Positions 1-20,648 of a stretch of DNA of 64,000 nucleotides are shown piece by piece. Source of the stretch: Cladocopium goreaui (lineage: Eukaryota; Sar; Dinophyceae; Suessiales; Symbiodiniaceae); contig CAMXCT020006334.1 of NCBI GenBank assembly GCA_947184155.2, positions 849,580 through 913,579 of the forward strand, in the 5' to 3' direction. The notes under the pieces were generated by a model that had not been told where the DNA came from, made no database searches, and was given only the letters and a program-made list of their open reading frames with translations. The position numbers were made by a program, and so were the translations under genes. Each line of letters begins with the position of its first letter. The first letter of the stretch is position 1.

Positions 1-381
1 CAAAATACATACTTACTAGTTACATTGTTTTCCTTACTTATCCACCGTCTTGCCCTTTTGCTGCTCTTGGTTTCTCTTCGTCATGAACTTGATCAACACC
101 TCTTCATCGTGAAGGTCACTGACACAGGTGTTACTGACTTGTCTTGGGCATTGGGATGGGTTCTGTGTCAACTCTCTAGGCTAGTTGCCCACATGTCTGT
201 ATTTTAGGGATTCTGTTTTAATTACCTCTCATTCCAGTCATTAATCATTGCAGTTGCCACTCAAAATTGATATCTTGGCTGATCACCGCAGACATCTGTC
301 CCGAGAGTTTTGACTTCGCTGTTTTGTGACCCGGCTGACTCGACATTTGTCGTCATTTGTCGTCATTTGTCGTGATTTGTC
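1..381. other. Upstream spacer of the first gene
   Basis: No convincing coding segment is seen. Just before the first ATG there are three near-tandem copies of a TCATTTGTCG-like unit (about 343-380), continuing the ACANNTGTC theme. No promoter element can be named; dinoflagellate genes usually lack TATA boxes. Confidence 0.4.
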
Positions 382-3042
382 ATGGCTCGTCCTGGTGAAG
401 TGGAACGCCAAATGGACTCACAGGTGTCCACAGAACTTGTGTTTGAGTACCTGTGTGGGATGGGTGAGGAGGGCACCCAATTCGTTGTTCGCAAGATGGC
501 AAGTGCGAACCCGACTCCTCGAGAAGATCTTCGGGAGTTTTTTGTTTATTATTTATCAGCATTTTATATTTTGAGAGTGGATTTTCAATGTGAAATGTTT
601 CTACTACTTGTGTCTTTCTTTTGGTATCGGTGTTGTTTCTTAATTATTCATGGGGATGCCATTGATGACAATTGTTTGATGGCTAAGGGGGCTACAATTG
701 GCGGTACATTTGTCCAACAACCTCTTGATTGAAGCTGTGGGCCAAATCCACAAGCCGTCACTCGTTTTGAACTTGGGTTCTGTTTATTTTGTTTTATGTT
801 TTGATCAAATAGAATATTGAATTGAAGCAGTTGCGCAATGTTCCTGCATGTTGAATTTAAGTGTTTACACATTATTTGTGAGATATTTGTAAAGTTTCAT
901 TCAGTTCAGAAATAACTTGTTATGACTTGAGTTCAGGTCTTGCTGGACAAACTTTTGTCTAAGGCACTATGACCCAGGAGCATTTGCCATCAATGTGGAG
1001 GAGGCCAAGCGGCACATTTGTCTGGAGCGACTGACTTGTTGTTCATTCATTTTTGTTTTCTTGAACTCTTCCTTGAAGAGTGTTTGGTATTTATAGTGGG
1101 GCATAGGGATCCAAACATGATTCTAAGTAATATAAGTCAGTCACATTTCTGATTCTGCTTTCTGCCCTTAGGACTGCCTTCAACTATCTCGCCTCGAGAG
1201 CATTGGACTGGGCAGGGGCGCAGCGCCGACCACAGGGGCGCAGCTTAAGTGCACATGTGTCATGGCTGAACGAGCGCCTCCCATGCCAGACTACAGTTGT
1301 CCCGTATCGGGGACAATTGTTTCATGTACAGTTGTCCTACAACCAGGAGCACACGTTTTTGGTACATCAAGGTGCCTTCCCTCAGCAGCAGTATTTTTAT
1401 TTAGGACACATGACATGTGTGACTGTTTGGTGATACATGACATGTGTGATTGTTTGGTTTTTGGGGTTTTGAGACATGATAAAAAATAGCTTTGATGGAG
1501 TTTGATAACTAACTACTGTAAAAGTTGCAGTGGCAGCAATTTCCATGTCTCAGCATGGCCTCCCTGCAGGACAAGCGTCGTTGGAGGCATGGGGGCTCTA
1601 CTTGAAGCCTGCTGATTTGGATAGAGTTGTCCCTCCTGTTGCACCTGCTCCACCGATCGTGCATATGCGCTGACACATTTGTCCGTACTGAGACATTTGT
1701 CCATCATTGACGCTCAGGTCTTCCATTGTCACATTTGACATACTGGGACATCTCCAGTTTGGTTTGATGCTAGTTTTTCAACTTCAAAAACCTGCATTCA
1801 AACAAAGTGTCAGATGTCAAGGCTTTTTTGATTTATATCATTTGTCCTGGTCATGTGCGTCATGTGTGGGTCACAGAAAAATCGAATCCTGAGCTGAAAA
1901 AAAGGTAGGGTTCAGTTCTGTCAGAGGTACTGCAATTAGTACAAGTATCACATATGTCTTTGCTGCTTCAATCTGGAGTGCTGTGTTCAAACACTACTGG
2001 TAGTTTGTTTCACTCAATTTGGGTTAGTCAAGGGGGGCAGGGCGGAACATCAAATCATCATGAAAGCTTGGCAAGTCATCCAAACCCTTGCATTCCAGTA
2101 GTTCCAGTGTACGCATGTGTCTGTCACTAGCCAAGCGTGTGCCAGGTGCTCTGTGGGTGTGTGGAGCAGTGCAGGCCTCAATATTGGGAACGCTCAACTT
2201 CACTAGGAGCTGATGCCTTGTTTGACACCAGTTATCATGGTCCTCACTTGTTATACCAACATATTCTTGCAGCACTTGTTATGTCCTGCGTTATCTTTGT
2301 GGCCCAGGCGCAGTTCACCACAAATCATTTGTCCCCAGATCATTTGTTACATTTGTCAGCTGTGTCTCATGGCGACAGTTGATCTTCTTTCCAAGGGGGA
2401 CACGCAGAAGGGTTGGGAAAAGGTGACGGGGACAAGTGTCATGGATGTCCTCAAGTGGCGCACAGGTGAGTACAGATGTCTTGTCAGTGATGCTGAGCCG
2501 CTGCCTGTCCCTGGTCTGATGTTCGTCAGTGACAATATTTCATTTTTTTCATTTAGCACATGCTGCATCTAAGACAATAATTTTGTTTTTGTGGATGCCC
2601 AATGTCGAAACTCATATGTCAGTAGATTCCCCACAATATCATTGTAGAGTTCAATTTGTTTCTGAACTCTTGTCATCAGGATGGACCATGGAATATTACC
2701 ATCACTATGCGTGGCCCGAACAAATCTGTACAAGTGTTTGGCACTCTTGAGGGCAAGGGTAAGAGGAAGACTTGTCCCTCGTTCCAGTCGCCGTGCAAGT
2801 CGCTCAGAAGGTCGAATGCGTTTCTTGAGGAGAAGGGTGCAGATGTGTCAGAGCCAGTGGGGTCTCAGAATTCTCCAGTTCCTGGTGGTCACATGTGTCA
2901 TGGTGAGTGGGTTACAGATTCCCAGGTTGAGCCACCTGATGATTTCCGTTGTCATGATGGTGATGATGAGATTCCTCAAACTGTACCTCAATATGGTGAT
3001 GATTGGGATGACACTCAAGTGGTGGAAGATGATTGCGTCTAA
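382..3042 (+). CDS. Multi-exon gene, unknown protein (element gene 1)
   Basis: Not recognised. The chosen start is the ATG at 382 (MARPGEVERQMDSQ), the first codon of a protein-like segment after the spacer. Further exons are suggested at about 937-1034 (acceptor TTCAG; LRHYDPGAFAINVEEAKR), 1172-1395 (acceptor CCTTAG; AFNYLASRALDWAG), 1529-1665, 2360-2465 (donor GTGAGT; ends DVLKWRT) and 2680-3042 (acceptor CATCAG; begins DGPWNITITMRG, ends at TAA). The C-terminal 40 residues are strongly acidic and rich in D, with repeated GDD. The middle has a basic patch (KGKGKRK). Codon phase between the last two exons does not match a plain GT-AG splice, so one border or one base is uncertain. It is the first gene of the + block, 1.1 kb ahead of the next. 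ACANNTGTC motifs lie in both exons and introns. Confidence 0.5.
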
Positions 3043-4143
3043 TGTCCTTTTGTATATTGCACATATGTACTTTGCTATGTGCTGTGACTGTGTCAAATGT
3101 CACTGAAAATGGTGATATTTTTGTTAGACACATGTCATGTTGCACCAATGGTGCCAAGTTAATTATGCCTAGTTTGTCTGTGTGTGGTCGATAGTAGCGA
3201 CAGACTGTGAGGCATGAGCAATTGTCAGGGGATCAGATGGAGAAAAAAACAGGACGAAGCAAAGACACACTTGTGATTCAATGTTGTTCCGAACTTTTGT
3301 CTGAATATGCACTTGATGTCAAGATCTTTCAGCAGTTTTTTTTATATATGTCGCACATGTTTAAGTTCCTGCTGGCCAAGGTGTGGAACTATTTGGAGAT
3401 GTGGAGAGCTCAGTCAAGAATCCAGTGAATGATGATGTTTAGTTACGTGTTACTTGTGTCATTTCTCATTCACTGATTCACTGGGTCTGAACTTGTATCA
3501 AACTTATTCTTGTGCCCAGGCTCTTACCAATGAGGTGTGGTCTTATGAGACTTGTGACTGTGACATGTGTCCACAAGCTTATGGCATTTATTTTAGTTAG
3601 ATATTGGCTACTGCTGTTCAATATGACATATCCAAGTAGCTCCATAGTTTAATAAATGGTTTCCACTTTGTTCCATACAGTTCTTTCGGAATCTGCTGCC
3701 AGGCTGATCAAGGTCTATACATTGTCTTCTCTGCCAGTTCTTGGTTAGTGGTGCCAAGCTCAAGTCGGATCACCAATCTGGGACATGATGATTAGTTAAT
3801 ACAACAGCTCACTGAACTAGCAAAGTGAAGACTTTAATTTGTTCAGAGAGTCTTTCATTGAAGTGTTTGATGCATGAGACATCTGACATTGACAATGTTT
3901 GCCATTTTCCGACTCAGACCCATGACAGAAATGTCCCACAGATATGTCAAGCAAACATTTCTTCGGAGTAAATGCATACATGTGGACAATATAAGGTTAT
4001 AATGAAAAATGATGACAAGTAAAGATATAATTCTAATGACTGAAAAATGATGATGCACTGTCGATCGACTCACTCACTTTCACAGCTACTTTCACAGCTA
4101 CTTTCACAGCTGGATTTGTCACAGTTGTCACATTTGCCTTCGT
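3043..4143. other. Spacer between element genes 1 and 2
   Basis: No supported gene. The stretch holds scattered motif copies (about 3120 and 3560) and a short triple repeat of TTTCACAGCTAC at about 4078-4115, just before the next start codon. Confidence 0.4.
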
Positions 4144-7123
4144 ATGTCCTCGGGCAATAGTGCGGCTCTGGAGCACCTGGCACTATCTGATTCAGAGCGA
4201 GAGGCTCTTGAAGGGCATCGGACTCTTGTCTTAACCTCAAGTCAAGCCTTGCCAGATTGTGCACTGAACTGTTCAAGTTTCTTTCTAAATGACACACTGT
4301 TTGCAGTTGCTACATTGTCACTGATGAGAAGTTTACAGTTTACATGTGTCAATTCTGCATTGATCAGATCTTGATTCAGGAAAGCCCAGCAAGTGCCATG
4401 TCTGCTTTTATGATTTTGTCTTGCCTTCTTGTTTATTGTCACTGTTCAAATGTGATGAGCTGGTGATGAGCTGCTGCATTGTTGAATGCTGTGCTTCTCT
4501 GGATCAGGCCATCTACTTGCTCTCGCTGCTGAGCCCGGCCCGGGCCGCGGAGATTTGTGGACAACTGTCGGAAGAGAAAAAGGGCGATGTCACGAGCTGG
4601 AGCCTCACATCAAGCTGGCGGCACGTCAAAAGGACAGGTTCTCAGATCTGCCTTTCACTTTCAGAAAAAATCATAGCTGTCACATTTGTCTTGAATAATG
4701 CCTTTTCCTGTGATTGAGGGCACTGAAAGTGTCTGACTTGTTGTGATTAAGGCTCCAGATCCATCATGGGTTCCCCGATCATCTTCCGTGGAAAAACCCT
4801 GGATGAGATCAGAACAGTAACTTGGCAGCATATTTATCTAAAACATTCAGACGTTAAAAGTATCTATAGGGAGTGCATGGTCTGTTTCAATTCTGATGGA
4901 TCACCTGTTGTTTCCCTTCTGTCTGACTTGATTCGGTCGCTGGCTGAGATTGTCCGCGATGCCGCTGAAAAAAGTGTCCTGCCGGACTGCATCGGACAAC
5001 TGTCCTCCCGGTACCACCGTGGCAAGATTCTGCAGTGGCCTATGAAAGTGGTCATTGCGGGATACGGCCAGGGCAAGAAATGGCAGAACATGCGTGAGGA
5101 CTGATTGATGTTGCTGTGCATGACTGCTTTTTGCATGTTGTGTTGGTTTGCCTTGAGGAAACTGATTGGTACTTCTTGCCTTTTTTGTTTAACTGTTTGA
5201 TATGCATGATAGCCTCTTTCCTGCAGGAATATGTGTCGGACCATTGGATGAAGAACGTTGGAGACATGTGTCAGTTCATGTCCCCGAACGAGTGGCACCG
5301 GGTTGACCTGGGCATGCCAGTGGAGTCCCTTGGCTGTACTATTCCATTGCCCCATGTGTTTGGCTTGTAAAATTATCTTCAAGTCATGCAGGAATGTTGG
5401 GCAAGTTTGAATTCAAAATCTTGACTTCATTAAGGCGAGCTCTAGGACCCTTCCGAAATGCACATTTGTCTGGCTGGCATCATGATATCCAGCGACAGGT
5501 GTGGTCATGTTCTGAAATGTGTCTGAATCTGTGTCATGTTCTGGTTTGATGAGTCTGGAATTGAAGTTTCAGTGCATTCTTGTATATATACTTATTGATT
5601 GCAGGTGATGGAGCATCCTGACTTCATGGAGACCATGGACTGGATCCTGGAAAGTCCTGCACCTCTGGTGAGGAAACCTGTTTGCTGATTTGTTTTTTAT
5701 GTGAAAAATGACAAAGTGGGTTTGACACATGTTACATAGTCAACTATTGACATATGTCCTGCAGGATCTCATGCACAGCTGGCTGGCACCGTACAATTGT
5801 CTGCGCCATGACCTTGTACGGCATTTTGATTGCAACTTGGCTTGAAATACTTGTCTTGATTGAGATTGCTGCTGATGTCTTTCAATTCAGCTATTCATTT
5901 CTTTTCAACCTAAGGCCATCGGGTGCCAGCCTGTGCTCTGCATCCAGTCCACGAGCACACAGTGGCAACAAGACGTGCACATGTGTCATTCCTATATGAA
6001 GGGCGAAATGTCCTGGGTTGACACAATGTCTCAGTTGCTGTCCACGACCGACGTGGAGTTTAGCGACTTTAAGAGGTATACAGCTGAATACATCGACCGC
6101 TACATATGTCGATTCAAAAACGGCTACTTCGAAGGGTGTTCTGGCTGCATTAGATTCATTTTCACACTGTGCTCAAATCTGAATTTGACTTCACTGTTGG
6201 AGAAAATTAGCTTAAGTACCCTTCAAATGGAACAAACAGTTGTGTAATGATTGACATTTTGCATAACCCATGTCATGTTGCCCAGGTTTGACCACTTGGT
6301 CCCCTACATCGAGGAAGTCAGAAGTGGTACAACTGTCGGACCAGCCCCCAAGGCTAGAGATTTGTCATTGCTGTTGCTGTGAAACTAACTTAAGGCTGCA
6401 AATGCAGTTGTATTGTTGTGTTGAGCAAGTCTTGCAAACTGATGTGAATAGCATCTGAATGTTTGATGTGTCTGAGCTGGATGTTGCTGACATATGTCTC
6501 ACAATTGTCACTTTGTCCACTTGCAGGCCATGCCCAAGGCCAAGGTGAAGGCAATGCCCAAGAACAAGACGGGGACAGAGTTCTTGGGGGCCAGTGCGAA
6601 GGCTGCCTCGTCATCAAGAAGGACACATGTCAACACCTCGGTCTTTGAGGAGGATGATGAAGAGTGTACAATTGTCGGAGGAGGTTGGGGATGCATGGAG
6701 GTGGATGATGATGGTGATGATGGTGATGATGGGGATGATGGTAATGATGGGGATGATAGTGATGATGGGGATGATGGGGATGATGGGGATGATGGTGATG
6801 ATGGGATGATGGTGGATGATGACTTCATCCCTTTCTTGTCATCCCCTTCACCTCCAATGGCTGCAGGTGGAGCCAGCCGTGCGAGATCGAAGAGCGTGAC
6901 CTGGCGAAAGAAGCGACAAGTGTCGCCTCCTCCCCCCCCTCCGGGGGTGCCCCCCCCGTGGCGCAAGGGGCCGGGCAAGAGACATGTGTCAGTGGGACAT
7001 GAGTCAGAGGAGGAGGACGATGTGGAGGTGATAGAGGATGAGGTGGAGGAGGATGATGAGCCACATTTGTCCGGAGAGCAGCTGGAGATCCCACAATTCG
7101 ACATTCCAGATGAAGTGATGTAG
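4144..7123 (+). CDS. Multi-exon gene, acidic low-complexity protein (element gene 2)
   Basis: Function unknown. The exon chain with mostly consistent phase is 4144-4227, 4508-4637, 4752-about 5095, 5227-5355, 5605-5667, 5765-5815, 5915-6075, 6286-about 6334 and 6527-7123 (stop TAG). Acceptors are CAG or AAG; donors include GTGTTT, GTGAGG, GTACGG and GTATAC. The third exon keeps phase only if it ends just before GAGGAC, a GA donor of the kind reported in dinoflagellates. The N-terminal half is a compact mixed sequence (ARAAEICGQLSEEKK; MSWVDTMSQLL; FDHLVPYIEEVR) with no family I can name. The last exon is low complexity: a GDD/DDG tract (6708-6815), a proline run (PPPPPPGVPPPW) and an acidic tail (ESEEEDDVEVIEDEVEEDDE), suggesting a disordered nuclear or chromatin-associated tail. 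ACANNTGTC is read in several frames in this exon (TIV, QVS, HVS, HLS). Confidence 0.6.
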
Positions 7124-7159
7124 CTTGGCTTTCGACTTTAATGACTGTACTAATTCATT

Positions 7160-7500
7160 TGACATGTGTTTCAGAACTTGTGTCTATCACTCCTGGCACT
7201 TGTGACTTATCTAAGGAATGAGATCATGGAGGACCATGGGATCTACAATAGCACCATCGGATTGTTCTGGAACCTTCAAGATTTCGAGCTTGGAAGAGTT
7301 CGCATGGTGAAGCTGCTGCTACTGGTTGTGCACAAATGTTTCATATGTCCAAATGTTTCATATGTCCAAATTGAGCTTTCCTGTGTATATGCTGATGGCT
7401 CGTGTGTCTCAGGTTCAAGCTGCTCTTCCGGAACCCTCGTCATCGACGTTCCAATCAGCGCTACTTCGCGTCGAATTTGGGTACCTTGCCTCATTTAATT
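7160..7500 (+). CDS. Possible small exons after gene 2
   Basis: Two protein-like pieces lie just after the gene 2 stop. One follows a TTTCAG acceptor at about 7173 and includes MEDHGIYNSTIGLFWNLQDF. The other (about 7411-7485) is flanked by a TCTCAG acceptor and a GTACCT donor. They could be a short separate gene or decayed exons. TCATATGTCCAAATGTT-like units are duplicated at 7337-7370. Weak support. Confidence 0.25.
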
Positions 7501-7633
7501 ATATTTGTATTTTGCTCTTTTGCATTTTGAACATGTGTCTTCTCATTCATCAGAATCCTTGTGTTGCATGATTTGATTGCTGCAGTTTGGTGTGCTTGTC
7601 TGCTTTGACACTCGAACTAAGACAACTGTCTGA

Positions 7634-7851
7634 GAGAGCTGAGACACTTGGAGCTAGCTTCCGGGTAGGAACATTTATCAATATCTATCAAGGGATTACA
7701 TTTGTCAACATTTGTCTGACATTGTTTGATCAAACCAGCAATGAGAGCTGAGACAATTGGAGCTAGCTTCCGGGTAGGAACATTTATCAATATCTATCAA
7801 GGGATTACATTTGTCAACATTTGTCTGACATTGTTTGATCAAACCAGCAAT
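7634..7851. repeat. Perfect-length 109-bp tandem duplication
   Basis: Two head-to-tail copies, 7634-7742 and 7743-7851, differ by eye at one base only (GAGACACTTG versus GAGACAATTG). Each carries two ACATTTGTC motifs. Near identity means a recent local duplication. It lies in noncoding DNA between genes 2 and 3. Confidence 0.9.
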
Positions 7852-8745
7852 GTGTCTTAATGTGCAAGATGTTCAATATAATATATATATATATTATTAT
7901 TATTATTATTGTTATTATATAAATTTAAGTAATATATATCGATAAGGATAAGAATATGTATGTCCAAATTTAATCCTCCAGGCATACACAGTTGAAAATT
8001 TGTTTGGTTCATGGTGGTCAAGACACATTGCTGGATGGGTCATTTTGCTGTCACTTTGCATCATAAGTGACATGCCGCTTCCCAAACTGCATAGCACTGC
8101 GTGCAATGGAAAAAAAAAGGTCTCTTTGGAGCTCTCTGTGAGTCAATGATTCCGTGACATGTGTCAATTGTCCATTGTAGACTTGTGTAATTAACCACCT
8201 TGACGTGTGCATCAATTTTATCCCAAGGTGCTTTACTTGTGGCAATAGTGCTCAGGACTCAGCGACATAACATGGAAGTACAAAATCCTTGAGTGAAGAG
8301 TTTGTACTCAATAAATCTGATCTCAAGAAAATATTCAAAATGCAGTGTATAATATAAAGCAAACACAGAATCGTCATATATTACATCTATATTATCATTG
8401 CTCCTGTGGTGCACTGAGGTCTGCAGTCGCTGACAGAGAAGCGTTGCTCTTAACAAAGTTGATTGCTCCATATTGTCATTGATCTGAGCACCATATCTCA
8501 TGGATGTTTGCCACATGAAACATGTGTCACACTTGTTTGACTTACTGCATTGTTCACTCAAGGTGATGAGTGGTGCATGGTGTGCCACAACCATGTGACC
8601 ATCTTAGCACTTTGCTGCTTTAACGTCTACATTGTTTGAGTCACTATTCTTTAAACAGCCTTGTGCAAGTTTGCCAGCTGTCTTGTTTATCTTTCAAAAT
8701 CTCTGTGATTGAATCTGTGGCATGAGGTGGTGATGGGAAAGTCCA

Positions 8746-8866
8746 GAGCTGTGGCACATTTCAGGGTTGAGACTCTCACTTCCAGCATTTACTGCACCTT
8801 TGTCAATGCACTGGTGTGATACTGGTGAGACACATGTCCAAGATTTACCACAGGCTATGGATGCTG
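8746..8866 (+). pseudogene. Decayed partial copy of a gene 4 exon
   Basis: The stretch aligns on the same strand with the gene 4 exon at about 13806-13981. Shared blocks include AGCTGTGGCACATTTCA, CTCACTTCCAGCATTTACT and ACTGGTGAGACACATGTCC. The copy has point changes and lacks about 60 bases of the source, including the segment coding SPDKKRIVQGNQ. It has no open frame of useful length. I read it as a fragment copied within the element and then decayed. Confidence 0.8.
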
Positions 8867-8898
8867 TTTCCTTTCTCAGGACCAATCAAATGCTGCGA

Positions 8899-9094
8899 CA
8901 TAAGTGCCAATAATCACAAACTGTTCACCTAGTGAGAACATGTGTCAGACCAAGTGCAAGAGTTACATATGTTCAGCTCAAATGCCCCTGAAATCAACAT
9001 AGCTTAGGCGCAAACGCTGAACATATGTAACTCTTGCACTTGGTCTGACACATGTTCTCACTAGGTGAACAGTTTGTGATTATTGGCACTTATG
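8899..9094. repeat. Perfect 79-bp inverted repeat with 38-base spacer
   Basis: Left arm 8899-8977 and right arm 9016-9094 are exact reverse complements over 79 bases by direct reading; the spacer is 8978-9015. The arms contain the motif in palindromic setting (AACATGTGTCAGAC and its complement). The DNA could extrude a cruciform, and the RNA would form a 79-bp hairpin. It is noncoding and lies between the decayed exon copy and gene 3. Confidence 0.95.
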
Positions 9095-9887
9095 ATCGTG
9101 GACTTGGGGCACATCGGTCCAAACCTTAGTATATTGCAAAATCACATTCATGAGACATGTGTTCAATTCAATGTCTCAGTGCATGATGTGTACTCTGCAA
9201 TCCTTCATTCCACCTGTGGACACATGTCAAAGTGACTAGGATGATGCAGTTGCACATACGTTGGTTGATATAAACATGGTCATCCATCATAAAACTGGAT
9301 TTGTAAAAGTTTTCCAGTCCTGATACAATATAGAGCTAGACTCACAGCAAACATTATAAGTGAAGCACAATGGAACTGTCACAGGTGTCTTCTCTTCATG
9401 GTGCAGTGGCGTCAACTGTCAAGGCGTGGCAGCAACTGCAACACCACCAGCAAGTATGATACTGACTGCATGTGAGATCAACCATTGTCACAACAGATGC
9501 CTGCAATCCCATGGGGCAGCAAGTCGAACCTAGAAAATAAAACTAAAAAAAAACTGGCTAGAATTTTCTCAAAATTTCTCAAAATTTCTCAAAATCAAAA
9601 TCTCTCAAAATCAGAGGCATGGGAACCATTGTAATTGAAAAGTAGTATTGCTGGGTGAAGTGAAAATTTCTCAAAATTCTCAAAATCTCTCAAAATCTCT
9701 CAAAATTTCTCTCAAAATCTCTCAAAATTTCTCAAAATCTCTCAAAACACTAGTAAAAAAAATATAGAATGCAAAAAAAAAACAATGGACAACCATTGGA
9801 CACTTGTGCTGATTTGTGGGGTATGTGCAGCGATCTCGGTCAATTCAAGTGTCCTCTTTTGTGCTGATTTGTCATCTGTACTGAGCC
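9095..9887. other. Spacer before the RING gene, with TCTCAAAAT repeats
   Basis: No coding segment is supported. At 9566-9748 there are about a dozen copies of TCTCAAAAT and TTCTCAAAAT in two clusters separated by about 60 bases. A few ACANNTGTC copies occur (about 9220 and 9380). Confidence 0.6.
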
Positions 9888-11584
9888 ATGCCAATGTCAG
9901 CATCGAAGCGTCAGAGGGTTCAGCAGCAGCAAATGATGATGAACCCTTTGATGATGATGTTGCCCCAAATGGCACAGATGGCAATGCAGCAACCAGCTCT
10001 TGATGAGGAATCGGGGGATGAAAGGGAGGTGAAGGAAGAGAAGAAAGAGGAGGAGAAGCAAGAGGAGCGTCGTGCACTACCAGAGAGGGGACAGATGCTT
10101 GGGTCAGGTGTCCAGGACAAGATTTCCTCTTCAGTGACCTTTTTGCGTCAAACACCTCGGTGTCGTTTGTCAGAGGGATTGGAATGGCTTTGCAAAGACT
10201 TGGACCCTAGCATGACTCATGCCTTGAGCCAGACTGGTCTGCTGGCCCTTGTGTACATGTGTACCCGGTTGAACCCTACAACTCGAATCAATGATCTTCG
10301 TGCCATGGTGTGTATCTTATAGTGTATTTTGGTAGTGTGGTAGTATAATGATAATGCTTTTATTATGTTAATGTGAATCTATGCATTTACTGATAGAGTA
10401 AGTCAGTTTCCCGACCGACTCAGGTGTGGTGACATACACAGATCTCTTCAACTGCTGGATTCGGGCGATGAACCGGGTGAAGGTCTCCTGTGGCCAAGCA
10501 CACATTGAGACAATTGTGAGCAAGTTACCTTTGTCTCCATGTGATGATGCTGTCCTGCAGCAAGCCTATCCACATGGCTGGGACACTCGAAATGAATTTG
10601 AACATATTTTATGTGTTTTGATGTTTTGGTTTCACATTACATGGCTGAGTGAAAAAATCATATTGGGATATGAGCTGTTCTGCATGTTGCACTGATCAGG
10701 ACAATTCGTGGATGAAGGCCAAGAAGAAGCGCTCTGTGGCAGAGGTGTCCGCAGGGAATGGTGATGTTGGTCAGATGCTTGGGCTTGCACCACCTCAAGA
10801 CAGCCCTGTGCAGCCCCCAGAGCTGGTACAAGCTGATGGGACATCTGTCACTGTCCAGCCAGCAACTGCAGTGGCCCCTGTGACACATGTGCAGCCTGCT
10901 GCGACAGTCCAGCCAGCAACTGCAGTGGCCCCAGTGACACATGTCCACCCTGCTGCGACAGTCCAGCCAGCAACTGCAGTGGCCCCAGTGACACATGTCC
11001 ACCCTGCTGCGACAGTCCAGCCAGCAACTGCAGTGGCCCCAGTGACACAGCCAGCAACTGCAGTGGCCCCTGTGACACATGTGCAGCCTGTTGCGACATT
11101 TGTGCAGCAAGTTGTGTCACATGGTGGGACTCCTGACACTCCAGCACCTCCTTGCACTCCTGCTCGAGCTTATCGTCGTGCTCCTGGAACACCTGTCCCT
11201 GCTGCTCAGTCAAAGGCTGCTGCCCGCCCACCTCCACGTGAAGATGCCATGTCTGATGATGAGAGTGACAACAGCCTGTCGTCAGATGTGGAAGCACATG
11301 TGTCGGAGCCTGTCGAAGAGGAGCCAGATCCATGCCCCATCTGCTTGGAGAAGATCCAAGTGGGAGAGTCGGTGACAGCCCTGCCTTGTGCACATGTGTG
11401 TCACAATGAGTGCCTGTCAAAGTGGAGGGCCTCACGTCCGGGCGGCATCCCTCTGCACCACTGCCCGATGAGGTGTGAGAGGACCTGGCAGTCGGAGATG
11501 GAACATGTGCCGTCTGAGTGGGAGCTTGTGGAGGCCGAAGTTGAGACTGCTATGGAGACTGAGATCGAGCAGATTTTTGGCTGA
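9888..11584 (+). CDS. RING-H2 protein, probable E3 ubiquitin ligase (element gene 3)
   Basis: Three exons keep phase: 9888-10311 (donor GTATCT), 10424-about 10614 and 10700-11584 (acceptor GATCAG, stop TGA), giving about 499 residues. The start is the ATG at 9888 (MPMSASKRQRVQQQQ), followed by a Q/M-rich and then a KE-rich charged tract. The middle holds 54-base repeats from 10853 (18 residues each, with VQPATAVAPVTHV), a flexible linker. The C-terminus has a complete RING-H2 finger: CPIC, then C-x-H-x2-H-x2-C in LPCAHVCHNECLSKW, then CPMRC. Such fingers bind two zinc ions and recruit ubiquitin-loaded E2 enzymes. Substrate and location are unknown. In this cluster it could act on a host or element protein, which is inference. 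The linker repeats carry ACACATGTC in frame, so motif number grew with them. Confidence 0.75.
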
Positions 11585-11616
11585 GGTCATCTGTTTTGGC
11601 TGAGGTCATCTGTTCA

Positions 11617-11652
11617 GTTCCTTGTGTCGTGTGTCATTGGCATCATGGTCTG
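11617..11652 (+). repeat. 36-bp exact copy of gene 5 coding sequence
   Basis: Bases 11617-11652 are identical to 18961-18996 inside the methyltransferase-like exon of gene 5. This copy sits just past the gene 3 stop codon. An adjacent 19-base unit (GGCTGAGGTCATCTGTT) is also doubled at about 11579-11615. Confidence 0.9.
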
Positions 11653-11831
11653 ACATATGTCCTGAGGGGAAGTCATTTGTGCTGCATGTTTCTGTGGTGC
11701 TGTGGGTTGCATATTGTGGTCATCTGTCTAAGTGAATGATGATGGCATAGTTGCTATGTTTCCTTTGTTTGTGTGAACAAGCACATGATGTTTTATTGTT
11801 TATATAATTTTGTTTTGTGACATTTGTGCAG

Positions 11832-14800
11832 TTGACCGCAATATCTCGTACTATAGGGGAGGCACCCTGTTCGAAGCACCAGCAGCTGACATGCCTTCAG
11901 GCAATCTTAAATTAGGAGAGCTTGGCTTCACTGCGAAGAGTTGAAAACATTGGATCACTTGAATTGTGAAATCAGCCTGCTTTGTGAGTGTGGCAGCACA
12001 AGTCAAGTTATTGTCATGTAATAATGTTGATTCTTATTATTGTTGCTGACAGGCTGATGGCGAGCAGCTCCACTATATCAGCAAGTTTGATTCTGAGAAT
12101 TATGCATTTCCTTTGATGCAATGGCATGCACTTCAGTTGAATCAAAGGAAGTCAATTAGTCTGCAATTGTGTTGATGTATGTCTATGGTGTTCTTGTAGC
12201 TGAATTGTGGTTCAGGAGTTTTGTTTCTGTTGTCTCATTTGTCCCCTGTGCTCTGCTACTATGGTGCGGGATGATGCAAGACTCATGGTCTTCAACAACC
12301 TTCAGCTGCCAAGCACTGTGGGGTATGTTGACAACACTGATGCTAATCGCATTCACTGGGATATAGCGTACTTCTATGACATCATCCGGGAAAAGGGGCA
12401 TGAGAAGAGAGGTTCCTACAAGTTCTACCGAGAGCTTCTTGGGACGGTAACAAACAAAGCTTTTGCTTTGAATGATGTGAGTTTGAGGACAGCTGTCGCC
12501 AGGTAGGGGTTTCTGAAATGTTGATTCAAAAATCTTATTTATTAGTAAGAACCTATCATTTAAAATTAGCTGGATACACTTTCAATATTTTGTGTTCATG
12601 CCGGAGTGAAGTGTTGGTTGGATTTTGGTGATGCCAAACCAATCAGCCTTGCTTGGAGGCCAGGCCTACTGGACCGAAATCTCTGCACTTCTTTGGCACT
12701 GGTGATCTGCCTGTTTACATTTGTCAACAGAGCTCGGGAGGAGGCCAAAGCTCAATTCCTGTTGTCCTACTTGAAGGCAGTTGGCTTCATGGTGATGCCT
12801 TGGGTGAGTGCTGTTGCTGGAGTGCAGGTGAGGTTTCCAGCGAATCGAGGTGAAACTTTGTTGGTGACTTCTTCTGGGAATCTTGCATTGGCTGCTTTTC
12901 TTCGCAGTGTCCATAGAGGAATTACTACAGCTTGGTCTCAGGAGTGGCATGCTATGTTCAATGCTGGACATTTGTCATCTGATTGGCAAGAGGAGGTACA
13001 TGTTGTCGATATTATCATTTTTGTTGCTATTTTGGAACGCTTTAGACGCTCCAGGCAGAAAGCGGTTCTGGGACAAATGTCAATACAGCTGCTCCAGGAT
13101 TTTAAAGATTTGATGGCGACATTTGTGTCAACTGCAATGGATCAGTTTTTGCTGCACATGTATACCCCAGAACAACCACATCAAGCACAACAAGCTGCTC
13201 CTGCCAGAAAATTTAAGAAACTAGCCATGTTACTTCAGCTAGTTGTTTTGATCAAATTTTGGCTTCACTTTCTTTATGTTGGGTTTATTTAGATGAACCA
13301 ATTACAATCTACTCTTGTCACAAGTGTCATCCACCAGGAAACGTCGAAGTGGACCGACAAAAACTCATGAGTCACATGTGTTGGTGCACCCAGACTCAAT
13401 ATGGACCATGCTGGAAGCAGCTCGGGAAAAGAACTGCAGCTTGTCAGTTGTCGCCAAGTTGCGCAGTGATGAAGTTCAAGGAGGTGCACACGCATCTTCT
13501 GTTGAGTACTGGAACCGCAAAGTGCTGGGAATTTATTTCGGGAAGGTCAAAACTGGGTTCCTGAATATTCCACACATCAACATGGTGACTGATGCTTCGA
13601 CTCACAGTCAAAAAGAAACAATTGTCAGCATATGTTACTCTCACGAGATGGACAGTTGTGCTCTTTGCCCGATTCAACATGTCTCTAGATCCAAAGTCAT
13701 TGCCCCACTTGAGTTTGATCTGGAGCCGGAAATCGAGATTCTGGCCGCCACACGCAAAGTTGAACGTTTGGCTGCCTACAGGTTTCTAGCTGCTCTTTCA
13801 CATCAGCTGTGGCACATTTCACGGGGGCGACTCTCACTTCCAGCATTTACTCCACCTTTGTCAATGTACTTGTCTCCGCTGAGTCCAGACAAGAAGAGGA
13901 TTGTCCAAGGCAACCAGGTCTTGATCAAGGATGTCCATACTGGTGAGACACATGTCCAAGATTTGTCAAAGGCTATGGATATACCCATCCTCACTGTCTC
14001 GATTGATCAGGGCGGTGTAGGTGCTGTTTCTTAGCAGCAATATCAAATGGGAAGGTTTCATAAAAGTATGAATTTATGACACATGACATGTGGCCATTCA
14101 TTGTATATTATATGTAAATGCAGAATACATGTATATTGTTTTAATACGTTTGTATGGTTATTTTCCCCTTGACCTGTTTCTTTGGTGCAACATTGTGGCC
14201 CAGGCAGGCTTGGCCTACTTGCAACACTGCAATCTGCTTGTACACTGTCACTGTGATAAAGTTCACAGACTGATTCGAGATCTGAAACTGTCCAATGGCT
14301 GTGACCCGAAGTTCAACGAGGCTGTATTAGCCACAACATATGCCTGGTCAGTCAACTATAAGCCACATGGCTCTGGGGCTTTTGGAGACGAAAAGTATGA
14401 TCTCCTGGCCAACTTCTTTGATACATGTGTCATGGAGGACTCACTCAAGGCAAATCTTATCATATTAGTTTTATGTTTTTTTAACACCATTCAAAAATCA
14501 TCCAACGTAAAACTCGTAGCTGATGATGTTGTGCAAAAACTTTTGGAGCAGGACTCGGAGCACTTCCAGCGGTACAAGTGTCTCATGGCTCTGGACTTTG
14601 AAGATGATTTTGGCAGGACACCAACAGATGAAGAAATGTGGAATCACATGTCAGAGTTGCCATCCTTTCTAGCCAAAAAGGGCTTACCAAAACCAGGCAG
14701 GTGGTTCGCCTGGCATGAGTGTGCACACCAACAGCTCAAAGAGTTTTTTGCCACACGTTGCCTTCTGCACTGGTACTTTGAAGATGAGGGGCTGCCAGCC

Positions 14801-17633
14801 CCTGAAGAAGTAAATACAAAATTTCAAAAGTGCAAAGGGGATCTGGGGGGCTTGAAACTGCTACATCGAGCTTTGACATATGTCAACCATGAGACTGCAT
14901 GTATCATGCTCTTGGTCAGCCGACCTTGCTGGACCTGGTATACGGAACAAATCTCTGAGATCAAAACCCCCCAGGAAGGAGTTGAGCAACTCATGACGTG
15001 GGCTTTGTCTTGGTACAAAGATGCTCACTTGCTGGCCATTGTGAAAACTCTGTATGATTGGCGGTCTCTGAAGAAGTTGGTGTACTACCAAGTGCACCAA
15101 GGCAGAACTGATGATGATGACCTAGCAGCAACTGTGTTCAAATATGCGTCAAATGTCCTGTCAAGAAGATTATGGACAATGTCAAGGTATGGCACAGCTC
15201 CTGAGTGCTTTGTGGGACTTGTCTCGTCATGTGTCGATCATCGCCAGGAAGCCATGCGTGTGATGAGGAGAGACTGGCGGCTTCTCAATCTGGCGGAACA
15301 GTCGGACAAATGTGCTAAAATTGTCCCTGACTTGCAATTCTTGTTCAGCGCCCCTGTCAGGCTATCGTGTGCTCTTTTGAGCAGAGTGGCTGGGACGAAA
15401 CAAGTGTCCCTGGAACATTTGTCTTGAAGGGTGTCTTGACTGTCTTGCCCGACAACAAGATCGTCGAAGATTGTCATCAAGCGGTGAGAGTGGAGGCAAA
15501 GAGTCACCCGAACCAAAAGATGACCGTGCCACGTGTGCAGTCATGTGTCATGAACAGCAATGTCTTCAGTTCCAGAAAGCTATTCCATGTGGGAAAGTTG
15601 ACTAAAGAGGAATTCGTCCAGAAATGGGGCAAGCGACAGACTGCTGATGAGCAGTATGGTCGCAAGATCTTTTCTAGCCGCTATCATCGTCTTCCCAAAT
15701 CTTTCAGCAACATCATGAAGAAGAAATCATGGACAAGTGTCAATGAGGAACAGTATGGGAAATCATATGCTGCATGGGAGTGGATTCGATTTTACACTGA
15801 ACATACTTTAGCGGAGACAAATGTCAAAGTTGACGACACTTGACTTGGATTTTGATTGAGCATCTTTTGCTTGCTGGCATTGTTTCCTCAATTCTCAAAT
15901 AGACTTACTTAAAAATATTCTTTTCTTTGATCAGTTTGGGCTGCACTTGCAGGATGGTCTGAACTCTGTCATGTGTTTTCCTGGTCAACTTCTGTCACAG
16001 TTGTCCACAGAGACAACTGTTCTCAGCCTTGGCAATCGACTTTGGGCAACTATGGTGTGGCCGTTGGAGGAACATGGTCATCATGACAGGTTTCAAACCT
16101 ACAAGCTCAGCACCAATCCATCCATTGGGGGGTCATTTGTCTTTCCATTCAACCCAAATGACTGGGTAGCAGCAGATGCAGAAGCATCATTGGAGGAAGG
16201 TGTTGGCGTACTACTGTCTCCACAGCGTCCATTTGAACCCTTGCCACAGGCAGCCCTTCGCCAGTCGGTCAATTTGACTTACAATGACTTGGTCATCATT
16301 GCTGATGCACTGGGGGTGCCCAATCCTGTTAAGTTGTCTCGAGCTGATTTGATTACCCGCTGTTGTGAGCGGCTTGGGGATGCAACTTTCACAGAGTTTG
16401 TGAAAAGTCAGGAAGCAGCAGTGAAAAAAAAAACAAAGAAGAATAATGCAGTGACAAATGTCGACCTAGCTGCATCATTGCTGGAGGGGCTGGATAAGGA
16501 TGAAGCACAAGAGTTTAGCGACATCAAGACATTTGTCAATCCTCGAACTGCTATGAAGAGGAAGTGGGCAGATATTAAGGAGGAGAAAAAAATGAATCTT
16601 GGTTGCTGACTAGATTTCTCAAATTAATTAGTCAAAATGAAGTGAAATAGAAAGCTTTAGAAATAACTAATTTCAAACATTCTCGTCTAAGGAGAAGGAG
16701 GAAAAGAAGAAGAAGATTGCCTCTCGCAAAGCATTTGGTCGAGGCCGAGGAGGTCGGGGACGAGGACGAGGCAGAGCCAGAGGCAAAGGCAGAGGCCGTG
16801 GAGTTCAGCCTCAATCCAGCGATCGTCCAGAACAGGTGTCAGCACCAGCGCCACCTCCAGCACCATCTGTTTCTGAGCCTGTGCCCTTAGCACTGCTTCC
16901 CGAAGTCGCTGAGGAACATGAGGAACATTCGCCGCACATGGAGCAACATGAGGAACATCAGTCCCCGGACATGGAGGAACATGAGGAACATGAGTCGCCG
17001 CACATGGAGCAACATGAGGAACATCAGTCGCCGCACATGGAGGAACATGAAGAACATCAGTCGCCGCACATGGAGGAACATGAGGAAAATCAGCCGCTGC
17101 ACATGGAGCTGGATGAGGAAGAAGTGTCTGATGCTGCAGCTGGGCCTGCTGCAGGTCCTGCTCCGTTAGCAGAGGCTGTAGCAGAGCCTGCAGCAGGACC
17201 TCCAGCAGAACCTGCTGCAGCTGAAGCAGGGAGGAGGCGTCATGTGGTACTTGTGTCGCCAAGAGAGCACTTCACACCTGCAATCCTTCAGAGATTGGCA
17301 CCTCCAGGAATGTCATTTGGCTTGGACCAAAAGGCCCACCGCTTCACCATAAAGTTTAAGATCAAGCCTCGAGAGGGACAAGTGTGGGCTGCTTATGGAC
17401 CAGGTGGATCTCGCTCCAAGGCGTTTCAACATATGTCCTGGGAAGAGGCACTGAAGCAGTTGCATCAGGAAGCTTGGGAGCGCTGGGATTTGGCAAAACA
17501 TTTGCCTGGCTTTGAACTCGATGATCCGAATCAAGCGCAGCAGCCTGGACATGTCTCAGACAGCATGCTTGCTGTGATAAGAGAGGTCATTGCACAGATG
17601 CCTCCTCCTACTAAGTATCCTAAGCGTCCTTGA
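11832..17633 (+). CDS. Large multi-exon transposase-like protein (element gene 4)
   Basis: Exons are recognised at about 11832-11935, 12056-12140, 12222-12450, 12730-12803, 12837-13010, 13338-14020, 14208-15322 (perhaps with an internal intron near 14450-14520), 15361-15828, 15935-about 16600 and 16692-17633 (stop TGA). The 14020/14208 junction keeps phase and reads SIDQGGVGLAYLQHCN, followed by HCHCDKVHRLIRDLKLS. An upstream exon has NMVTDASTHSQKETIV. Spaced aspartates at strand-like positions plus D-x2-HR-x3-D resemble an RNase H-like DDE transposase core and match, from memory, a repeat family in dinoflagellates; this is inference. The tail has an RG-rich basic block (FGRGRGGRGRGRGRARGK), 33-base repeats coding HEEHQSPHMEE (about 16911-17109) and an A/P/E-rich stretch. 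A frame change at 15323-15360 needs a 38-47 base intron or is a frameshift. The first exon is uncertain. Confidence 0.55.
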
Positions 17634-17944
17634 ACAAGTGTGTTGCAATGGCTTGCACATGTATGCTGCTGCGCTTAAAAAAATGCCTCAAGTTTGAATG
17701 AATGAATGCACAAGACTTTGAGTGAATTTGTCTTGTCTTGGACTTGTTTTAAGATTGAGTTTCATGCCCGCAGCTTTTTATGTGAATATGTCAAACTGTT
17801 TCAAACAACTATGTAGTTGTATTCATGTTGAAAAAACCATGTTATATCAAATCATGGCATAATTTTCGAAATTCCACTGGATACTGGTCACTGATCACTG
17901 ACTATTATCTTGAGTATAAATTTCACTCCTCCTCTGAAGTGGCC

Positions 17945-19342
17945 ATGGGGAAATCAATTGCAGTTGCAGAAAGGCGCCAGCAGCAGCAGCGGACTATGAT
18001 GTGGCCCTTTCTTCCATTTCTCTGCTTTGCACCTCCGAAGAAGAACAAGTGTCAGAAGAAGAACAAGTGTCAGCAAAACAAAGAGGTGGACGAAGCTGCT
18101 ACCAAGAAATATGTCCATGATGATGCTGGCTCTTCTGGCACTGGCACTGAGGCATCAGGTGTCACTGAAATGCATGAGGCAACAAGTGTCAATGCAGCAG
18201 CTGCAGCTGCCACTGATTTGCCAATTGACCCATTTGTGGACAAATGTGCTAAAGCTCTTGCATTTGGCTATGAGGATGCCTGGCCCTACTCTTCCTTCAA
18301 CAGGCCAGGGTTGATAATCATGTTGTTGAATAATAACAAACGTAACAAAGAAACTTAGTAGTGTCTTAGTTTCTTAGTAGTACTTAGTAGTGTCTTCAAA
18401 ACTATCCTGGCTGCCCACCCTGACTGCTGCAGGTGTGCACAAATGTCGTCGTTCCTGATGGAGACCTTTTCTCGGTTCTTGGCACATGATCTTCATGTGT
18501 CTGGTGGGAATGCGATCAAGATGTGGCCACCTCTCCTGGACTCACTGTACCCATGTCTGCGACCAGTTACAGACCTTGCGATGAAGCTGTCACTCCTGTG
18601 CCAGCGTGCTTTTGCCAACAGGCTCCAGTGTTCACATCATCTCCACCACTTTGTTGAGTACTGGTGTGGCGCAGCCAACTTGACCAAGGAGATGATCAAA
18701 GCAGGCTTTGAAGGAGCTGGGTTCGACATCATCCATTCACATATGCACAGTTGTCTCGACACATGTGGCCTTCGTCTCTGGATGGATATGCTCATGAGCA
18801 TATGTGAACATGGTCTTTGTTGGCTTGGACCACCTTGTTCTTCATTTGTCATATTATGTCTGGCGCAAAGCCAAAGGTATGGCTGGAACCAGTGGTGGGG
18901 AGACACCACGAGGACATTTGTCAGGACTGGCAATAGCCACATGCAGGTAGCAGCCATGATGTTCCTTGTGTCGTGTGTCATTGGCATCATGGTCTGCTTG
19001 GAGCAGCCGGACAACTCGTGTTTGCACAAGTGTCTTCCTATGAGGTCAGTGTTGTCATTTGTGAAGGCTCATCGTGTGAAGACTTATCTTGGAGCATTTG
19101 CTGGCCCCACTCAGAAGCCGCTGCAGATATGGACAAACAGAGTGTGCTTCAATCAACTGTCCAGAGATTGTCCAGCCAGGGAACAATTGTCAGGTGAGCA
19201 ACTGGTGACTCGAAGTGAAGATGGCCGAAGTTTCACCGGGAGGAAGGACCTGCTAGAGGAGTCAGGTAGCTACACTCCACAATTTGGGTCAAGTGTTGCC
19301 CAGACTTTTGCATCGGAGTTTCTGCGGCTGCGTCATGTGTGA
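17945..19342 (+). CDS. Methyltransferase-like protein (element gene 5)
   Basis: Two exons, 17945-18309 (donor GTTGAT) and 18433-19342 (acceptor CTGCAG, stop TGA), join in exact phase to 424 residues. Exon 1 has a basic Q/K-rich start (MGKSIAVAERRQQQQ), a doubled KKNKCQ unit and an acidic middle. Exon 2 holds a Rossmann-type methyltransferase-like domain: a motif I-like segment FVEYWCGAANLTKEMIKAG, GAGFDI, the P-C segment LGPPCSSFV where C5-cytosine methyltransferases place the catalytic cysteine, and CLEQPDNSC. From memory this matches a family repeated many times in dinoflagellates and usually carried by mobile elements. Target (DNA, RNA or none) is unknown; the usual target-recognition region is not seen. 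It is the last gene of the + block, 311 bases after gene 4. Confidence 0.65.
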
Positions 19343-20648
19343 GTGACTTTTGTCTCACACTTGTGCCAGCTGCCTGCATGCAGTGTGTTGCACTACATGG
19401 AGAACTTCTGTCTCCCCAATCTTTGGCAACCACTGCAAATTAGATTTTCAACACATGTCAAGCATCATGTGTTTGATCTCATCATAGGGTTCTTGGGTAA
19501 AAACAGTTGTCCTTGCAGGCGAAACTCAGGAATTTGTTTGATACTTGTGTTTGTAAATGCTACGAGAATATGCAAAATCTTAGATAAATCTTAATTCCAA
19601 CTCCACTTGCTTCACCTGAGGTTGGATGGCAATGTTTCGAGGCCAGGGTATACAGACACATGTTCACTTGTGCTTACTTGTGACAATTGACACAAAACTT
19701 TGACATATGTCCTCTCTTTTGCTCTTGCCAGGAGGAAAGCATATCAATAAAATATAATAAAATTATATAAACATATAAAAATTAAAAGAAAAATATATCA
19801 TGTATTATTGAATTAACTATAATTTCTGGAGTTTTGTTTTACGTAAACCATCGTTTGGAATGCGTTGTCCTTTGCGATATGCAAAACGTGAAGAGAGAAA
19901 AAAACATGTTTTTTTTCTGACAAAGTTTGTGGTACTCCATTGTGTTCCACCGTGATACCACCGTGATACTTGGCGTGCAATCTTTAAGAAAAATTAGGGA
20001 AAAAAAAGGAAACACATGGAAAACCCAGGAAAACAAAAGGCAACAGCGTTGCAGTATCAACTCTATTTTTGTTTTATTTCTGTCTTCAATAACCCAAACC
20101 TACCTTATAGAGGACCCAGGGAACCAAGGTAGCACATTACGTTTGGTGATTACAGTGGATCCCAGGTTAGAAATGAGGTGGACATGGGGAACGCATGAGA
20201 ACTCCATGGAACTCCATGTGTATTATATAGGTCAATCTATCATGATCGCTGATTTCGCCTGAGTAGTTCTAGTTTGGGATTTTTTGTTGCTGGATGCTGG
20301 TGGTGCAGCCATAGAGACGGTAAGGGGAACCAATAAATTGCAATTTTTGCATATTTAAGGTGAACAAACGATATACAAGCCGAATGATGAGCAATATATT
20401 GTGACACGGACTCGTTGAATTGGGATGTTTCTTTTATCCACAAACTCGGAACACCGAAATCTCAACCGTAAAAAACATGTTTGAGGTTAGGTTAGAAGGG
20501 GTGATCCTATCCGGATATTGTATCCTGGACTTGGAAGGGAATATGTTTAATTCAAACTTTAGATAGTAGTGTTAGTGAGGAAAACCGTGATCAACCGTAA
20601 GATTCTTATGTACATTCTTTGCAATCCGAGGCAAACTTACAAACACCA
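19343..20648. other. Spacer across the right edge of the motif-rich block
   Basis: The first 400 bases still carry motif copies (ACAGTTGTCC near 19505, ACATATGTCC near 19705). From about 19740 the composition changes abruptly to AT-rich DNA without the motif. No gene is supported. Confidence 0.5.

Follow-up and report, generated by a model that had tools for sequence, protein, structure and literature searches.

Why does one short sequence motif fill almost 20 kb of a dinoflagellate genome and then all but disappear? The question is raised by a 64,000-nucleotide stretch of the Cladocopium goreaui assembly (GCA_947184155.2, contig CAMXCT020006334.1, positions 849,580 to 913,579; the whole stretch is called the window here), in which the 9-mer ACANNTGTC crowds a block at positions 1-19740. 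The original prediction had put the number of plus-strand copies in this block at ~75 by eye, with hardly any elsewhere. We counted 84 copies in the block and a single one, in bin 24001-25000, in the remaining 44,260 bases. The reverse complement GACANNTGT, representing copies on the minus strand, occurred 56 times and the full dyad GACANNTGTC 33 times in the block, and neither was found in the rest of the window. The union of both orientations amounts to 107 distinct sites (5.42 per kb, or ~1 per 180 bases), compared to 1.4 expected from the density in flanking and sampled host DNA (12 sites in 163,390 bases, 0.073 per kb). Markov chains of order 2, 3 and 4, trained on the block itself, yielded on average 4.6, 6.4 and 8.3 copies of ACANNTGTC, with a maximum of 14 among 30 runs at order 4. 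Thus, the motif enrichment in the block is real. The block forms the body of a 20.6-kb DNA transposon, and the motif sites may be its recognition array for a sequence-specific protein.

A transposon filled with motif sites

The array begins with a site at window position -10, just left of the window, and its final site begins at 19,703. Over the 50 kb upstream of the window only stray sites occurred, at background density. Comparison with the fetched ends of five other copies placed the array inside a discrete unit: four left ends terminate at -450 to -454 and four right ends at 20149 to 20155, so that the leftmost 450 bases of the window copy fall just left of the window. The copies are 95.5-99.4% identical within the element, and past these boundaries there was no blastn match. 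The termini read TCACCAA...TTGGTGA and belong to inverted repeats, which match at 78-79% over 55-57 columns in the copies (alignment score 49 over 56 columns, compared to a maximum of 35 in 60 shuffles). A 5-bp target-site duplication was present in two of the four copies with both flanks, TTACA for the window copy and TTCAA for the copy on contig C325; none was seen for the copies on C152 and C885. With these shared termini, inverted ends and duplications, the multi-gene block is a class II DNA transposon, a discrete mobile element, as had been proposed.

A 25-mer end pattern, allowing up to 2 mismatches, gave at least 79 matches in the genome, and its reversed control none. Hand-pairing of the matches listed yielded 16 pairs of ends separated by 19.8-25.2 kb, and in another 9 pairs the separation was 3,441-3,473 bases (~3.46 kb); 29 of the at least 79 matches were left without a partner. 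The number of matches suggests that a few dozen copies of the element exist. The interiors read were 5 kb of the C152 copy and 1.5 kb of a short element on C125, in addition to end pieces. The C325 and C152 copies (L031, L033) cease to align at window position -20; they may share an insertion near this point, or the window copy may have a deletion there. An initial estimate of ~300 copies was dropped, as contig C1, which had served as background, is probably that of a bacterial associate in the assembly. All 13 of the 10-kb stretches sampled from C1 (L010-L022, 7.38 Mb) have a G+C content of 56-60%, compared to 39-53% for 7 stretches taken from C5837 and C2.

Across the assembly (1.1656 Gb, 6,202 contigs), GACANNTGTC was found 16,083 times and its reversed control 12,187 times. 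This corresponds to ~14 dyads per Mb genome-wide and ~1,670 per Mb within the block. Together with the 107 sites where 1.4 are expected, these densities indicate that the motif marks the element and not the genome at large. A double-site pattern matched at 373 places, compared to 139 for its control. Among 100 of these places that were listed, 12 were recognisable by their letters as this element, and the others include tandem repeats; the places left unread, among them clusters C289, C785 and C890, may include diverged relatives. The sole other cluster read, on contig C253 (L040, G000:C253:234500-237500), contains, at about 1,000-2,400 of the 3 kb read, a degenerate array in which CATGTGTC-like units abound, with 5 sites per orientation and no blastn similarity to the element. 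The predicted link between dense clusters and this gene set therefore holds for the 12 places and does not extend to C253. Among the places read, the 20-kb dispersed form of the motif was seen in this element alone.

The clusters outside the element, such as that on C253, and the modest genome-wide excess of the dyad, in which element and host parts are counted together, are what one would look for if a host protein, a silencer or chromatin organiser, bound the sites and the element depended on it or was marked by it. However, selection should act against a silencing mark where the copies of a family are near-identical and hence recent, and yet the motif is built into the coding sequence of this family. 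We regard a host binder as quite improbable.

Form and placement of the sites

When ACANNTGTC-type sites were sorted by the length of the spacer between the two halves, spacer 2 accounted for 84 sites in the block, compared to 12, 5, 4, 6, 0, 3, 3 and 2 for spacers 0, 1, 3, 4, 5, 6, 7 and 8. Spacer 0 was also above the rest of the window (12 in the block versus 3 in 44 kb), in part because 8 of the 84 sites have CA as their middle dinucleotide (NN) and so nest the spacer-0 form. The NN is free, the commonest pairs being TT (18), TG (13), AG (10), TA (8) and CA (8). The core of the site is the dyad ACANNTGT, in which the right half TGTC is strong and the left half degenerate. The complete dyads and the strong preference for spacer 2 bear out the earlier description of the core as a dyad. 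The assumption that a dimer site is necessarily symmetric was abandoned, the right half of the motif being the stronger.

The sites are also oriented. The right C alone was present in 51 sites and the left G alone in 23 (p 0.0015). Forms with one mismatch in the left half (TCA, ACT or AGA, followed by NN-TGTC) numbered 47 on the plus and 10 on the minus strand, and TGTC outside full sites 166 and 80, respectively. Thus, the strand bias is real yet partial, and the dyad core carries a bias in orientation. The claim that the motif runs along transcription, the direction of which was taken from the open frames (plus strand), survives as a significant bias and not as a rule, since 56 sites fit the minus strand. 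Orientation of this kind could reflect a role in RNA, with an RNA-binding protein reading ACANNUGUC on sense transcripts to control their export, stability, processing or packaging. The bias does follow the open frames, is strongest in the half-matching sites and is found in coding and non-coding stretches alike. Yet the sites that fit the opposite strand include all 33 perfect dyads; a DNA dyad of fixed spacing is unexpected for a single-strand signal, and introns would shed their sites. A role in RNA thus appears quite unlikely.

Site density hardly differed between coding (5.46 per kb) and non-coding DNA (5.39 per kb), based on 16 likely coding stretches (8.6 kb in total) judged by open frames, with introns presumed. 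The coding sites use all three codon phases and shape the protein as well (Thr-x-Val, His/Gln-Leu/Val/Met-Ser, x-x-Cys-x). Coding DNA held 37 copies of ACANNTGTC, whereas 300 synonymous-codon shuffles gave 5.0 ± 2.0 with a maximum of 11; the coding copies are therefore not owed to the protein sequence or to average codon usage. These results bear on whether the sites are a by-product of local tandem duplication, gene conversion, base composition or codon bias. Some sites do lie in tandem repeats (7634-7852, 10853-11049 and 18037-18073), and TGTC is enriched on the plus strand beyond the full sites. Against this, the flanks and the NN are variable, the sites are spaced in a Poisson-like fashion, spacer 2 stands far above the others, and neither the Markov nor the synonymous-codon controls reproduce the sites. 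The spacer, Markov and shuffle results rule out chance, base composition and codon bias as the source and contradict a by-product as the full account, which we consider highly improbable. Tandem repeats were rejected as the principal source; by eye, most sites lie outside the tandem repeats that were listed.

Along the element, the sites are placed in a Poisson-like manner (dispersion 0.89 in 500-base bins), with even density through the middle. The outer ~437-440 bp at each end contain no site. This distribution is relevant to the possibility that the transposase itself uses the sites, either as dispersed subterminal sites that help to bring the distant ends of a 20-kb element together or as a means of titrating transposase. 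The element is long and has a transposase candidate (see below), and short elements share its ends; one of these elements, partly read, also has sites. In En/Spm and Ac, DNA transposons in which a protein-binding motif likewise recurs in many short copies, the subterminal transposase sites cluster near the element ends. Here, in contrast, the ends are empty and the body is filled up to the middle. The absence of sites from the ends speaks against transposase docking, and we judge use by the transposase to be unlikely.

The short element with sites, on C125 (L041, G000:C125:507940-509439), is 3,466 bases long, of which 1,500 were read. It opens with ~320 bases that match the right end of the long element at 92%, and at 384-523 there is a 70% match to the adjoining part. 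In the next 977 bases, blastn (E 1e-3) detected no similarity to the long element. This stretch contains 3 sites, compared to 0.07 expected (Poisson P 6e-5); 3 sites were reached in 6 of 1000 order-2 simulations. It also includes a 102-amino-acid frame whose match to a C2H2 zinc finger falls just below the Pfam cut-off (E 5.4e-5). An unrelated interior that nevertheless carries sites indicates, for one element and three sites, that the motif accompanies the ends and not the genes.

The fixed spacing and dyad form, the indifference to coding, the even spread, the site-free ends and the sites in the short element fit an array that lets a dimeric binder treat the whole element as one target. Judging from sequence and counts, we put the chance that the sites are a recognition array of this kind, for a sequence-specific protein, at about even. 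A dimeric protein, most probably a product of the element itself, would recognise the sites, and the high local density would load it along the whole element, telling the element from host DNA. The loaded protein might then set the chromatin or methylation state of the element, by anti-silencing of the kind known for VANC or by self-marking. The strong TGTC half and the degenerate left half would orient the bound complex along transcription. Selection would act on density and not on single places, which would account for random spacing, free NN, use of all frames and sites in an unrelated short element. Binding, the element origin of the binder and the effect on methylation or chromatin are steps that we infer.

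Relatives of two element proteins, described below, bear on this reading. We counted site-encoding peptides at places where the near family lacks them and compared the counts with shuffling. Relatives of the methyltransferase-like protein at 60-64% identity (P0019, P0021-P0024) had 16 such peptides versus 6.1, and relatives of the large-gene product at 50-55% identity (P0004, P0006, P0007, P0008, P0010) had 20 versus 7.4. P0023 taken alone showed no excess (1 versus 1.2), nor did the remoter relatives P0026, P0030 and P0011 (5 versus 5.1). P0020, P0025 and P0014, present in the same alignments, were excluded from the count. These data suggest that relatives at 50-64% identity bear the same motif at other places and that remoter ones do not.

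Several observations weigh against a recognition array. The peptide counts are indirect evidence drawn from interrelated rows, P0021 and P0022 being nearly identical. Among the pieces of the other copies, with sites defined from the window copy, none of the 382 core positions had changed, compared to 1 of the 104 NN positions and 63 of the 10,400 others; a conserved core is what one would expect, but the difference falls short of significance (P 0.098). The one-mismatch form with ACT showed no clear enrichment in coding DNA (4 versus 2.6 in shuffles). The orientation bias is partial, a single short element was read, and that in part, and the existence of clusters outside the element, as on C253, means that the motif is not exclusive to it.

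Genes of the element and neighbouring features

The features of the element are listed in Table 1. The Pfam scan covered 16 element open reading frames (ORFs).

Table 1. Features of the transposon in window coordinates; negative positions lie left of the window.
Feature	Position	Strand	Remark
DNA transposon, 20.6 kb	-450..20149 (G000:C5837:849129-869728)	+	termini common to other copies
Target-site duplication TTACA	20150..20154		second copy at -455..-451
Right terminal inverted repeat	20096..20149	-	partner at about -450..-396
Motif array, 107 ACANNTGTC / GACANNTGT sites	124..19711	both	84 +, 56 -, 33 shared
ORF	376..729	+	no domain recognised
Two ORFs, likely exons	4751-5101, 5098-5367	+	first without recognised domain (Pfam scan of first)
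ORF	5876..6244	+	no domain recognised
ORF, acidic protein with Asp/Gly repeat	6491..7120	+	collagen-repeat match below threshold
Likely RING-finger protein exons	9885-10319, 10649-11581	+	zf-RING_2, E 2.2e-8, in second ORF
Largest gene, several exons, transposase candidate	12204..15840	+	no Pfam match
ORF	15860..16606	+	sub-threshold Rho_N match, E 0.039
ORF, Arg/Gly-rich, then 33-base coding repeat	16671..17630	+	no domain
ORF	17786..18355	+	no domain recognised
Methyltransferase-like protein	18443..19339	+	FVExWCG...GFD and conserved PPCSS

Three products come into question as the binder: the Rho_N-like protein of the gene at 15.9 kb, the transposase candidate and the methyltransferase-like protein. 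The first is a possible DNA-binding protein, judging by its Rho_N match; among the matches listed, 12 of its 20 relatives are 97-100% identical. The largest gene has at least 15 relatives, one of them from EukProt, and the largest cluster comprises 225 member sequences. A Pfam search of this gene gave no match above the cut-off and recognised no DDE transposase, and the AlphaFold2 model of its relative P0011 had no usable fold (predicted local distance difference test, pLDDT, 41). It is a transposase candidate by size and abundance alone.

The earlier assignment of a methyltransferase-like gene to the element was upheld. The FVExWCG and PPCSS motifs are conserved in an alignment of 13 sequences (the element protein and 12 relatives). 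The AlphaFold2 model (pLDDT 79, predicted template modelling score 0.82) had DIM2/DNMT1 as top Foldseek matches (E 3e-4 to 9e-4), at template modelling scores of only 0.31-0.34. No Pfam DNA-methylase match was obtained, and the best hit in a PDB sequence search had an E of 0.28. Based on motifs and model, the protein is best termed methyltransferase-like.

Two of the proteins carry in-frame tandem repeats, a 54-base repeat at 10853-11049 in the RING protein and a 33-base repeat at 16911-17108 in the Arg/Gly-rich ORF. The element also contains a perfect 79-base inverted repeat with a 38-base loop (8899-9094). About 1 kb past its right end lies a long TACAT / TACATTACAT satellite (21108-22030). 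Further on, outside the element, a 1,021-amino-acid ORF on the minus strand (26510-29575) matches the copia-type reverse transcriptase domain RVT_2 (E 8.5e-8). Viral contigs examined for leads gave nothing useful.

Relation to known systems

The nearest parallel is VANDAL21 of Arabidopsis, as the original prediction had proposed. In the available portions of the published accounts, VANDAL21 has dense 9-base motifs of one orientation that are rare elsewhere and are bound by VANC21, and motif density is proposed to matter for targeting (PMC5735166); VANC21 is coded by the transposon, finds its own element by these motifs and induces loss of methylation (PMC5735166; PMC10398659). The VANDAL21 motifs are described there as mainly non-coding and as growing via tandem repeats, and VANC proteins as having variable parts with tandem peptide motifs (PMC5735166). 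As far as those portions go, the Cladocopium element resembles VANDAL21 in being a multi-gene DNA transposon with a dense, oriented 9-base motif scarce elsewhere, and its two proteins with in-frame tandem repeats recall VANC. It differs from VANDAL21 in that coding and non-coding DNA carry its sites at equal density and that most sites, by eye, fall outside the tandem repeats listed. Moreover, Mutator-like elements (MULEs) make target duplications of about 9 bp, as opposed to 5 bp here (in two of four copies). Pfam recognised no MULE transposase or VANC-type domain in the 16 element ORFs, in which introns may hide pieces. Thus, the parallel stands for the oriented dense array and not for the placement of the sites, and membership in VANDAL was rejected on site placement and target-duplication length.

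Retrotransposons with DNA methyltransferase (DNMT) genes, SymbioLINE-Dnmt and SymbioDIRS-Dnmt3, have been described in Symbiodinium (PMC5890265, available portion). They share with the present element a methyltransferase-like gene on a mobile element; from what that portion states, the difference is that ours is a DNA transposon with inverted ends whose methyltransferase-like protein has no Pfam match. A DNMT-bearing retrotransposon was ruled out here, since no reverse transcriptase was found by Pfam among the 16 element ORFs scanned and the RVT_2 ORF lies outside. Among the entries listed by literature searches, no title or abstract opening described such an element. To our knowledge, sequence-specific anti-silencing by a transposon is known from one plant system only, whose sites are mostly found in rapidly evolving non-coding repeats.

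In conclusion, we tentatively propose, with the chances leaning somewhat against it, that a giant transposon family has written the recognition code of its own binder along its entire length, coding sequence included, and that short non-autonomous partners, whose interiors are unrelated, are kept in the family partly by the same code. Such a code would act as a label of self and non-self, possibly read together with the methyltransferase-like protein. As the dyad crosses coding DNA at 5.4 sites per kb, selection for the label would compete with protein coding, which is measurable in any copy. Identification of the binder would turn the family into a test bed for self-marking by a genomic parasite, for the co-evolution of motif and binder, and for the mobility of non-autonomous partners.

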